Source: Frigoribacterium sp. PvP032
GTDB taxonomy: Bacteria > Actinomycetota > Actinomycetes > Actinomycetales > Microbacteriaceae
Length of the DNA: 64,000 nucleotides
Reading direction: 5' to 3'
Assembly: GCF_017833035.1 (NCBI RefSeq)
Contig: NZ_JAFIBM010000001.1
Location: 1,674,001 to 1,738,000 of the forward strand
This document shows, piece after piece, positions 36,805 through 53,597 of the stretch. The first letter of the stretch is position 1, and each line of letters begins with the position of its first letter. The notes under the pieces were generated by a model that was given only the letters and a program-made list of their open reading frames with translations, was not told the DNA's origin and ran no database searches. The position numbers and the translations under genes are program-made.

Positions 36805-37398
36805 GTGACCCGACCCGAGATGGACGACCGGCGGGACGAGCCCGACGGACTGGACGAGCCCGACGGACTGGACGAGACCGACGGACTGGACGAGACCGTC
36901 CTGGTGGTGCCCAGGGCCGGGTCGAGGGTCCCGGACGACGACACGATCGTCCGGCCCCGCGCCGTCTCCCGCGTCCCGGCCGCCGGAGCGGCACCCGCGC
37001 CGGTGGTGCCTCACGCAGTCGCGTCGCGTCGCGTGCACTCCGTCCGCCTCGGCGTCGGCACCCACCGCCTCGACGCTCCCCTAGTGATCGGCCGGCGTCC
37101 GAGTGCCCCGCGCGTCGTCTCGGGGCCCGCCGTCGTCCTCGTCGCCGTGCTCTCGCCGACGGGCGAGGTGTCGGGCAGCCACGTCCGGGTCGAGCAGGTG
37201 GGCGCGACCGTCGTGGTCACCGACCTGCGCTCGACGAACGGCACGGTCGTGACGATGCCCGGCCGCCTTCCCGTGACTCTCCGGCAGGGCGAGTCGTCCG
37301 TGGCGCTGGCAGGGACCATAGTGGACGTCGGCGACGGCAACCTCATCGAGATCCTCCCGCCTCCCCGACCCGCAGCCCAGGAAGAACCTCGCCCGTGA
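36805..37398 (+). CDS. Small FHA-domain protein with acidic repeat N-terminus
   Basis: The 197-residue protein binds phosphothreonine through a C-terminal FHA domain (about residues 78-190; IGRR at 95-98, SGSH at 123-126, STNG at 143-146). The N-terminus holds acidic repeats (DEPDGL) and candidate phospho-acceptors Thr31 (DETVLV) and Thr47 (DDTIVR), recalling GarA/OdhI-type proteins that fold back on their own phosphothreonine. GTG 36805 follows GGGAGGA. It overlaps the PP2C gene by 4 nt, opening the kinase-phosphatase locus. Confidence 0.88.
   Translation: MTRPEMDDRRDEPDGLDEPDGLDETDGLDETVLVVPRAGSRVPDDDTIVRPRAVSRVPAAGAAPAPVVPHAVASRRVHSVRLGVGTHRLDAPLVIGRRPSAPRVVSGPAVVLVAVLSPTGEVSGSHVRVEQVGATVVVTDLRSTNGTVVTMPGRLPVTLRQGESSVALAGTIVDVGDGNLIEILPPPRPAAQEEPRP
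36835..36900 (+). repeat. 18-bp in-frame tandem repeat in the FHA gene
   Basis: GACGAGCCCGACGGACTG is repeated at 36835, 36853, 36871 (one base changed) and partly at 36889, encoding DEPDGL/DETDGL. Copy number probably varies between strains and sets the number of DET motifs. Confidence 0.85.
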
Positions 37399-38195
37399 CA
37401 GAGCTCGGCCGCCCCACGACAGCCCATCCCCTCGCCTCCGGCACGACCGGCCTCACCATCGACTGGGCCGGCGTCACCGACGTGGGCCTCCGCCGCGCGC
37501 ACAACGAGGACAGCTACGTCGCCGACGCCCCGGTCTTCGTCGTCGCCGACGGCATGGGCGGGCACAGCGCCGGCGACGTCGCCAGCGACGCGGTCGTCCG
37601 GCGGGTCGCGGAGGCGGCGGTCGGGGACCGCCTGAGCACGGACGAGCTCGAGGAGGCGCTGCGACGGGCCACCGCGGACATCGCCGTGGCCGCGGCGGAG
37701 ACCGAGCTCGGCGTCGGGACGACCGCGACCGGCGTGTTCCTCTCCGTCGGCGAGGCCGAGGGCGAGACCGAGTTCACCGTCTTCAACGTCGGCGACTCGC
37801 GCGTGTACCTCGTGGCGGACGGCGCCCTGCGGCAGGTCACCGTCGACCACTCCGTCGTCCAGGAGATGGTCGACGCGGGCCTGCTCCGCGCGGAGGACGC
37901 CGAGTCGCACCCTGACAGCAACGTGATCACGAGGGCGGTCGGGTTCGACGTCGACCAGCGTCCCGACTACTGGCGGGTCCCTGCCCGTGCCGGCCTGCGC
38001 CTCCTCGTGTGCTCCGACGGGCTGACGAAGGAGCTGTCCGGCGGCGACATCGAGCGGGTGCTCGCCGCTCAGCCGGAGTCGCACGCTGCCGCGTCGGCTC
38101 TCGTACGGGCGGCAGTCGAGGCCGGCGGGCGCGACAACGTGACGGCCGTCGTGGTCGACGTCCGGGGTACAGAGGGCGAGCCGGCCGAGGCGTAG
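37395..38195 (+). CDS. PP2C-family Ser/Thr phosphatase (PrpC/PstP-like)
   Basis: The 266-residue cytosolic metal-dependent phosphatase shows every PP2C motif: RRAHNEDSY, VADGMGGHSAGDVAS, GDSRVYL, CSDGLTKEL and RDNVTAVVV. It has no TM helix, unlike PstP of mycobacteria, so it resembles bifidobacterial PrpC. It should reverse the action of the kinase encoded 184 nt downstream. The GTG start overlaps the FHA gene stop. Confidence 0.95.
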   Translation: MTELGRPTTAHPLASGTTGLTIDWAGVTDVGLRRAHNEDSYVADAPVFVVADGMGGHSAGDVASDAVVRRVAEAAVGDRLSTDELEEALRRATADIAVAAAETELGVGTTATGVFLSVGEAEGETEFTVFNVGDSRVYLVADGALRQVTVDHSVVQEMVDAGLLRAEDAESHPDSNVITRAVGFDVDQRPDYWRVPARAGLRLLVCSDGLTKELSGGDIERVLAAQPESHAAASALVRAAVEAGGRDNVTAVVVDVRGTEGEPAEA

Positions 38196-38304
38196 CAGGG
38201 GCCCTCGTCCACAGGCGTCGGGGCCTGCTTCCTCCCCCGAAGTGGGGGAGTGTCGGACGTCCCCCGTCCGTGCCGAACGGGGCACGGGCCCCGAGGGCCC
38301 GACC

Positions 38305-52545: not shown

Positions 52546-52634
52546 TCCCTCCCCAGGGGGCTCGACCGTTCGCGGCCGGGCTCCGGCCTGTGCACGGGTG
52601 CCTCGCCCGTCCCTCGTCGTGGTGGGCTGGCCCC

Positions 52635-53597
52635 GTGACCCCACTCGTCCCCGACAGCACCGCCTCCGTGAGCGGGCCGATCGTGGTCCCTGCCCCGTCG
52701 CCGGCACGATCGCCGTGGGTCCTGTCCGTCGTCGCCGCGGCGGGGGCCGGCGCGGCGGTCGCCGCGGCCGGAGCGGCGCGGGGCCAGCTCGACCCGGTCG
52801 CCGTCCTCCTGTCAGCAGCTGCGGTCCTGCTCGGCCAGGCTCTCGCAGGCCTCGTGGCGCGGCATGCCGACCGGGCCGCCCGTGACCGGTGGCTCGCGGC
52901 CCTCGACGAGATCGGGACGGTCTGCGACGCCCGGCTCGAGTCTCGTCGCCGGTCCCTGCGCCGGCTCTGGCCGACGTCGGCCGATCTCGTCGAGCAGCTG
53001 CGTCGAGGTGAGCCCCCGCCCGTCGTCGGCCTCTCCTCACTCGTCGTGCTCGGCACCGGACCTGTCGACAGCGGCATCGTCCTCGTGGGCGACGGTGCCT
53101 CCTCCGTCGCCCCGCACGTCCGGGCCCAGGCGCTCCGAGACCGCGTCGCCGACGTGCCCGACGGGCCGCTGTGCGTCGACGCGGCCGGGGGAGTGCACGT
53201 GCGCGGCCCGGCCCTGCTGGCCCGTTCGCTGGCGGGCGGCTACCGAGCCCAGCTGCGGCACCGCGGGGCTCCCGAGGGCCTCGTGACCTGGCAGCAGGCC
53301 TGGCCCGCCGAGCCCTCGGCCGACCCGACCTCGGGCGACGGGACCAGGTCGAGCGCCGTCGCAGGAGGCGGGGCCCCCGACGTCGCTGTGGCCTGTGTCG
53401 TCGAGATCTCGAGCCACGGCGTCGCCACCGTCGTCCGTCGCGACGGCTCGGCCTGCTCTGTGCCGGTCGTCCCGGCCTGGACGTCGCTCGTGGACGCGCC
53501 CGAGGCTCCCGGGGCACACGGCGCCCCCGACGCTCCCTGCGGCAGCGACGCCCCCGACGTCCTCCGTCGTCAGCCGGTCAGGCCCGAGCGCCCGTGA
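52635..53597 (+). CDS. Two-TM protein resembling the FtsK/EccC N-terminal region
   Basis: The 320-residue product (GTG 52635) has two adjacent TM helices (about 28-48 and 54-74). An Arg-rich helix pair follows (RDRWLAALDEIGTVCDARLESRRRSLRRLW, given here by its ends 84-112), then a domain with GPLCVDAAGGVHVRGPALLARSLAGG. This order matches the membrane and pre-ATPase part of type VII secretion EccC/FtsK proteins, yet no Walker A motif or ATPase domain follows. It may be a degenerate or repurposed EccC-like subunit. Its last 20 bases overlap the convergent asparaginase gene. Confidence 0.65.
   Translation: MTPLVPDSTASVSGPIVVPAPSPARSPWVLSVVAAAGAGAAVAAAGAARGQLDPVAVLLSAAAVLLGQALAGLVARHADRAARDRWLAALDEIGTVCDARLESRRRSLRRLWPTSADLVEQLRRGEPPPVVGLSSLVVLGTGPVDSGIVLVGDGASSVAPHVRAQALRDRVADVPDGPLCVDAAGGVHVRGPALLARSLAGGYRAQLRHRGAPEGLVTWQQAWPAEPSADPTSGDGTRSSAVAGGGAPDVAVACVVEISSHGVATVVRRDGSACSVPVVPAWTSLVDAPEAPGAHGAPDAPCGSDAPDVLRRQPVRPERP

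Follow-up and report, generated by a model that had tools for sequence, protein, structure and literature searches.

A PFNA-like gene cluster of Frigoribacterium with an apparent pseudo-transglutaminase and a motorless EccC-like stub may descend from a type VII secretion-linked cluster

The PFNA operon of Bifidobacterium has the gene order pkb2-fn3-aaa-atp-duf58-tgm, optionally accompanied by prpC, a hypothetical gene and fha. According to the available parts of the published accounts, its genes form one operon in B. longum GT15 and MoxR is a phosphorylation substrate of the kinase Pkb2 (both PMC8430577), Pkb2 is a working kinase and fragments of the FN3 protein bind TNF-alpha (PMC8430577, PMC6803598, PMC10688814), and the operon is found only in bifidobacteria (PMC10688814). 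The accessible portions of Garrett et al. 2024 (PMC11217815) describe a type VII secretion system, T7SSd, with TsdA, TsdC, the kinase TsdD, TsdH and TsdI, a protein with immunoglobulin-like (Ig-like) domains. TsdC has an N-terminal FHA domain, EccC works as a hexamer, and the authors propose that TsdI may span the envelope and that phosphorylation and FHA domains may control assembly; this proposal is the nearest published idea to the reading put forward here. We analyzed a stretch of 64,000 nucleotides (nt) of Frigoribacterium sp. PvP032, the window, which covers positions 1674001–1738000 of a 3.33-Mb single-contig genome and carries, at window positions 36805–53597, nine genes that resemble the PFNA operon and end in an EccC-like stub. 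All nine lie on the + strand, as the original prediction had it.

In the best supported reading, these genes encode a module in which MoxR is the motor, a DUF58 protein and a pseudo-transglutaminase serve as adaptors in the membrane, and a propeller-Ig-FN3 protein is the product or conduit; the module would formerly have been coupled to a type VII translocase, of which the anchor is left. We put the probability at roughly 0.45 that the locus, as a conserved PFNA module, serves envelope assembly under the control of phosphorylation and descends from a type VII secretion-linked cluster; its mechanism is what we infer. New here are a transglutaminase-fold protein (TGM) that looks dead, type VII EccC/EssC genes behind the cluster in other families, and the stub as the motorless part of such an ATPase.

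The last point rests on profile and structure comparisons, which identify the ninth gene as the membrane, stalk and DUF part of an EccC/EssC ATPase lacking the motor domains and bear out the EccC-like nature proposed for it earlier. Using hhalign, the stub alignment matched compact EccC with a probability of 99.5 and large EccC with 95.0; control comparisons (six further families from these loci, five alignments with shuffled columns and one reversed alignment) gave at most 1.6. Neither EccC ATPase profiles nor a WXG100 profile (built from five relatives and applied to frames of at least 40 amino acids (aa)) had a match in window positions 33001–58000. The stub sequence occurs in all 16 genomes of the genus (14 by tblastn, two by position and profile), and in 15 of them its frame is intact and ends near one domain boundary. 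Core motifs are conserved in the alignments, and the ratio of nonsynonymous to synonymous substitution rates (dN/dS) is 0.33, 0.49 and 0.67 in closer pairs.

At the position of the stub, which is about 250–350 aa long in Frigoribacterium, many relatives have an EccC-like ATPase, in most cases of 850–1094 aa. The genus therefore has to be called reduced, rather than carrying the "expanded" version first supposed; the eight other genes are the usual form of the family. In a tree of MoxR, DUF58 and TGM, made by a quick method with support by the Shimodaira–Hasegawa-like approximate likelihood ratio test (SH-aLRT) only, the window is placed within a group of four Frigoribacterium isolates, and the groups of Frigoribacterium and Curtobacterium come out together, with support, nested within the ATPase-carrying clades. 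Four changes on this tree explain the full, stub, relic and none states as labelled, compared with a shuffled mean of 27.2. The label "relic?" was given to all 18 Curtobacterium-group loci, including L156, which has no such gene in the gene calls. The Curtobacterium gene at the stub position aligns to compact EccC with a probability of 60 (E 9e-5), to stubs with 22 and to large EccC with 0.6, and the stub profile finds nothing in the Curtobacterium-group loci L156, L147 and L135; it is a candidate relic of still tentative homology. The motor was probably lost once, before the Frigoribacterium–Curtobacterium split, and independently in Leifsonia, though with the Curtobacterium gene a candidate relic, separate losses in the two groups could also explain the data. 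The relatives offer a natural series that runs from large EccC through compact EccC, in which one or two P-loops can be recognised, to the motorless stub and finally to loci with none; in this series one could study the role of the membrane and DUF part of a type VII ATPase once the motor is gone. L095, a metagenome-assembled genome named Frigoribacterium, groups with Lacisediminihabitans in the tree and has an EccC-like gene; its name is probably wrong.

The cluster is common in the family, where 126 of 150 genomes contain a TGM relative. The order FHA1-PP2C-kinase-Ig/FN3-MoxR-DUF58-TGM is found in 16 (L010–L025) of the first 20 family loci, which were picked by hand for diversity and not just as the nearest. 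Ig protein, MoxR, DUF58, TGM and kinase were matched together in all 41 compared loci, window included (the kinase match of L026 is weak), all 41 having been selected for holding a TGM match; their co-occurrence is not due to chance. A second cluster type has the order Ig-MoxR-DUF58-TGM-FHA-PP2C-FHA-kinase (for example L028, L029, L031–L033 and L039). Among the named loci (the top 80 out of more than 555, nearly all from a single family), the closest are from Frigoribacterium; the TGM of the window and that of Frigoribacterium sp. PhB116 (L083) share 92% identity. The named loci also place the cluster in Salinibacterium, Cryobacterium, Agromyces, Leifsonia, Curtobacterium and other genera. Many of these are free-living. 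Of the nine genes expected to be conserved together, eight are so, and widely; the ninth is a fast-evolving remnant of a larger gene. Two further arrangements were seen in single genomes: parts of two adjoining PFNA-type clusters in L040 (G033) and two large Ig-protein frames in tandem in L031 (G077).

EccC-like genes accompany both cluster types. A compact EccC-like ATPase gene lies behind the FHA gene in 43 of 72 named loci, a count that leaves out seven named loci truncated at contig ends. Six family loci (L071–L076) have an EccC of 1476–1525 aa behind the kinase or TGM; they show an arrangement and not its frequency, because they were picked for a large EccC already located near a TGM match, and L082 (G080), retrieved alongside them, has the cluster without an EccC in its stretch. 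A WXG100-like gene was recognised in five of the six; in four it follows EccC directly, and in L072 it lies about 7 kb farther on. The EccC of L076 has an N-terminal FHA domain. The WXG100-like proteins of L076 and L214 score 26.5 and 27.1 bits, just under the Pfam cut-off of 27.3, and likely belong to that family. Between kinase and EccC, the second-type loci L071–L074 and L076 have a gene of about 243–266 aa, a possible extra type VII component; the three copies scanned had no Pfam match.

An order-level sample of 40 loci, 37 of them from 12 other families (families being family codes assigned to genomes), was chosen by hand for spread. A same-strand EccC lies behind the cluster in 13 of the 40, with nine of the 12 other families represented; this is not a random-sample rate, because the loci were chosen to spread over families, and about 0.33 in 40 would be expected by chance at an assumed rate of five EccC-like genes per 3 Mb, kinship ignored. 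L189, L195 and L198, which have EccC, also have WXG-profile matches nearby, and among seven extended loci (L210–L216) such matches stand directly behind EccC in L214, L215 and L216. An adjacent EccC was also considered for family f4, presumably Bifidobacteriaceae (genomes of 1.7–3.1 Mb, GC fraction 0.59–0.65 in five loci), and none was found in five f4 loci; EccC-like frames of 591–761 aa lie elsewhere in all 13 f4 genomes searched. In two f4 genomes, G241 (C2) and G296 (C7), a 1524-aa EccC frame lies about 32 kb from the PFNA TGM gene. The window genome has two separate type VII-like loci, G000:C1:1312000-1331500 (L208) and 3146000-3165500 (L209). One encodes a 1319-aa EccC and EccD/YukD domains and has a WXG100 match that stays below cut-off; the other encodes WXG100 and a 1468-aa EccC, and its T7SS-signal match is likewise below cut-off.

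The TGM contains both a TgpA_N and a transglutaminase-core fold, and its sole match in the PDB is 6g49, TgpA. The canonical transglutaminase motif is G-x-Cys ... His-x-W. In the window protein the corresponding residues read GDAEQYA ... VTAW, so that Cys is replaced by Ala and His by Thr. The catalytic Cys is present in none of 41 family, 40 order-level and 79 named TGM rows of the alignments, and the His position is kept in six, 13 and none of them, respectively; the 160 are rows and not independent losses, because the three sets overlap in organisms. The pattern behind the 79 named rows, GDxEQYA, allows Cys at x; L105, one of the 80 named loci, has no recognised TGM frame. L199 and L200, two order-level rows that lack an Ig or kinase gene nearby and are of a type other than PFNA, are without the Cys as well. 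As a positive control, the TgpA-like protein in a second MoxR-DUF58-TgpA trio of the same genome (L206) shows the canonical motif, with GYC and an aligned His. The window TGM thus looks catalytically dead, a pseudoenzyme. An enzymatic transglutaminase step is not supported, the catalytic Cys being missing in every aligned relative, and a protein without it would serve as a scaffold or adaptor. The same genome has three further MoxR-DUF58 loci, L205, L206 (G000:C1:1512000-1531000; L206:8388-13046) and L207. A TgpA-like neighbour, with intact Cys and His, is present only at L206, and the kinase, FHA and EccC genes of the PFNA cluster are absent from all three retrieved stretches.

The phosphorylation set looks active from its motifs. 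Read from the sequence, FHA1 has the Arg, Ser-x-x-His and Asn-Gly-Thr positions intact, both FHA domains (FHA1 and the zinc-ribbon FHA protein) keep the phosphothreonine-binding positions, as expected of the two FHA readers already proposed, PP2C keeps its metal-binding Asp motifs, the kinase its VAVK, HRDVKPSN and DFG motifs and one transmembrane (TM) helix, and MoxR its Walker A motif. PP2C scored 202.6 bits against the NCBIfam Stp1/IreP model, under the cut-off of 230. An extracellular FN3-like domain of the kinase can be recognized by reading the sequence, as the original prediction did; the only Pfam match there (Kre9_KNH, E 6e-4) is below cut-off. No PASTA domain was matched in the kinase with Pfam, and the score with the PknB_PASTA model, whose cut-off is 450, was 171.7 bits. 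The zinc-ribbon FHA protein has two zinc ribbons, a long low-complexity linker of repetitive Glu, Gln and Pro (window ∼50740–51100) and a C-terminal FHA domain. It is called at about 515–725 aa in Frigoribacterium and Curtobacterium and mostly at about 95–360 aa in EccC-carrying relatives, L013 (619 aa, with EccC) being an exception.

The Ig/FN3 protein starts with an N-terminal TM helix (by reading), followed by a beta-propeller and then by eight stretches that match Big_9 Ig domains and two that match FN3. An AlphaFold2 (AF2) model of residues 1–407 has a predicted local distance difference test score (pLDDT) of 82.1, with block means of at least 90 for nearly all of residues 51–360, and the best PDB match of the propeller region is 1l0q, an archaeal S-layer beta-propeller (E 1.9e-10). 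MoxR is 99% identical to that of L083, with a dN/dS of 0.01, and the GDxxRxIHW motif of DUF58 is conserved in the alignment. The idea that DUF58 is a second dead component, suggested by a DxSxS metal motif unseen in 41 rows, was dropped because other DUF58 proteins of the same genome also lack a clear motif in the alignment.

Gene coordinates (Table 1) were set from start sites and comparison with relatives. The set lies between an O6-methylguanine methyltransferase gene on the opposite strand and a convergent asparaginase gene, and the FHA1 start is preceded by a good ribosome-binding site. Overlaps of 4 nt, said earlier to mark most joints, occur at four of eight (FHA1/PP2C, kinase/Ig, MoxR/DUF58 and DUF58/TGM); the remaining joints are gaps of 184, 43, 8 and 44 or 89 nt. 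The largest gap is indeed 184 nt and lies directly 5′ of the kinase gene. The stub is the sole gene without a Pfam match.

Table 1. The nine genes of the PFNA-like cluster, in window positions
Gene	Position	Strand	Features
FHA1	36805–37398	+	197 aa; C-terminal FHA domain; Pfam FHA E 1e-4, above curated cut-off
PP2C Ser/Thr phosphatase	37395–38195	+	266 aa; Pfam PP2C_2 E 2e-11
Transmembrane Ser/Thr kinase	38380–39810	+	476 aa; Pfam Pkinase E 1e-41
Ig/FN3 surface protein	39807–45641	+	1944 aa; Pfam Big_9 E 6e-63, fn3 E 2e-19
MoxR-family AAA+ ATPase	45685–46656	+	323 aa; Pfam AAA_3 E 6e-62
DUF58 membrane protein	46653–48104	+	483 aa; Pfam DUF58 E 3e-11, profile positions 2–86 of 216
TGM, TgpA-like, polytopic, transglutaminase fold	48101–50485	+	Pfam TgpA_N E 5e-17, Transglut_core E 4e-11
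Zinc-ribbon FHA protein	50494–52545	+	683 aa; Pfam Zn_Ribbon_1 E 2e-11 (2 stretches), FHA E 1.5e-4, above cut-off
EccC-like stub, motorless	52635–53597 (alternative start 52590)	+	320 aa (335 from 52590); two TM helices, stalk, DUF domain; without ATPase domain

A mechanism can be envisaged in which the kinase would sense the state of the envelope via its outer domain and phosphorylate Thr residues on its partners, the marks then being read by the two FHA proteins. The zinc-ribbon FHA protein might dock on the stub, by analogy with the N-terminal FHA domains of EssC-type ATPases, which sit on their own membrane part. MoxR, acting via the membrane pair of DUF58 and pseudo-transglutaminase, would power the step in which the propeller-Ig-FN3 stalk is assembled or released across the wall, and PP2C would reset the system. 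With the translocase motor lost in Frigoribacterium, the stub would act as a docking plate or as an anchor in the membrane, leaving the module to run without a motor of its own. The kinase targets, the docking on the stub and the role of the surface protein are the parts of this scheme that we infer. A bolder proposal, tentative and with the odds somewhat against it, is that the PFNA module is the phospho-regulated assembly or conduit half of an undescribed T7SSd-like subtype, in which MoxR, DUF58 and pseudo-transglutaminase would act as assembly factors and the propeller-Ig-FN3 protein would span the wall. This half would have been kept in Frigoribacterium, Curtobacterium, Leifsonia and probably Bifidobacterium after the motor was lost or uncoupled, and the published "host-sensing" PFNA operons would accordingly be domesticated secretion remnants.

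Several observations weigh against an assembly module of type VII descent. A profile built from stubs only found no EccC in the PDB; the link between stub and EccC runs through full-length relatives and not through stubs alone, and 19 of the 24 rows in the alignment for the AF2 model of the stub are full-length relatives. Leifsonia has lost EccC and kept the remaining cluster, which shows that the module can do without the EccC part. A same-strand EccC was not in the retrieved stretch of 27 of the 40 order-level loci (L167 has one on the opposite strand), EccC-like or FtsK sequences lie elsewhere in all 32 re-searched genomes, and in L077 and L078, the two first-type loci extended, no WXG100 neighbour of the compact ATPase gene was seen; with EccC in just 13 loci and no WXG100 at these two, the secretion link would be ancestral or optional. 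The stub is also the fastest-evolving gene of the operon, with dN/dS near 1 in wider pairs (0.92, 0.96), which is compatible with slow decay, and an in-frame stop splits it in one of the 16 genus genomes (G152, L064). Together with the at best weakly similar gene of Curtobacterium and the complete loss in Leifsonia, this would fit a decaying pseudogene, the working module being the eight other genes. The 15 intact frames with their shared end, the conserved core motifs and the dN/dS of 0.33–0.67 in closer pairs make this somewhat unlikely.

A host- or surface-sensing relay, the function originally predicted, would require an external ligand, bound by the outer Ig/FN3 protein together with the kinase ectodomain, and a signal passed on by the cluster to the cell; for this relay the outer FN3-like domain of the kinase, the reported TNF-alpha binding by Bifidobacterium FN3 fragments and the activity of Pkb2 can be cited. 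We consider it improbable, since the cluster is usual in genera that are, as is generally known, largely free-living, in a third of the order-level sample it adjoins a gene for a type VII ATPase, for which a mere sensor would have no use, the nine-gene operon has no output regulator and sensing is nowhere evident. It is less probable still that the motor is supplied in trans, with the stub or the module relying on either of the genome's two further EccC proteins, or the stub competing with them as a dominant-negative regulator: both type VII-like loci have remained and EccC acts as a hexamer (PMC11217815, in the part available), yet these loci are about 0.4 and 1.4 Mb distant. The module with a motorless anchor remains our preferred reading.

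A word search of the available text of the T7SS-variant paper (PMC11217815) gave no MoxR, DUF58, transglutaminase or fibronectin, and one of the accessible PFNA review text no "type VII"; in the open literature, most subscription papers being beyond reach, we found no paper joining the PFNA operon and type VII subtypes. A MoxR-vWA paper (eLife 2020, PMC7159879) concerns, in the part available, a different MoxR system.

Among known systems, the window locus differs from the PknB/PstP/FHA cell-wall locus in that its kinase has no PASTA match, and from a type VII secretion system in that it has neither EccC/EssC ATPase domains nor a WXG100 match. It shares the MoxR-DUF58-TgpA trio and the TgpA_N and Transglut_core domains with the TgpA clusters of Pseudomonas (PDB 6g49), but its TGM lacks the catalytic Cys and His, and kinase, phosphatase, FHA and Ig/FN3 genes are added. 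The second-type relatives resemble T7SSd in gene content: besides a kinase they encode a large EssC-like ATPase, which carried an FHA domain in the single example scanned, and a very large Ig-like protein, and most of them also have a WXG100-like gene. In contrast to T7SSd, MoxR, DUF58, TGM and two FHA genes are added, the window locus is without ATPase and WXG100, and the TM helix, C-terminal in TsdI according to the available text, is N-terminal in the window Ig/FN3 protein. The bifidobacterial PFNA operon is matched, as originally predicted, by kinase, FN3 protein, MoxR, DUF58 and TGM in the same order and on one strand, with PP2C and FHA also present. Here, however, PP2C and one FHA gene lie upstream of the kinase, a zinc-ribbon FHA gene and the EccC-like stub follow TGM, and the optional prpC, hypothetical and fha genes of the published form do not stand after tgm; in presumed Bifidobacteriaceae, L194 has PP2C-FHA after TGM, L191 has PP2C there with FHA on the other strand, and L190, L192 and L193 have neither after TGM. 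In the window, the FN3 protein has a beta-propeller and eight Ig stretches. Whereas the published account takes the PFNA TGM for an enzyme, the aligned TGMs, five presumed Bifidobacteriaceae rows included, lack the catalytic Cys, so that our findings oppose two printed statements, this one and the restriction of PFNA to bifidobacteria. If true, the reading preferred here would join the bifidobacterial PFNA "host-sensing" operon with the newer type VII secretion subtypes.

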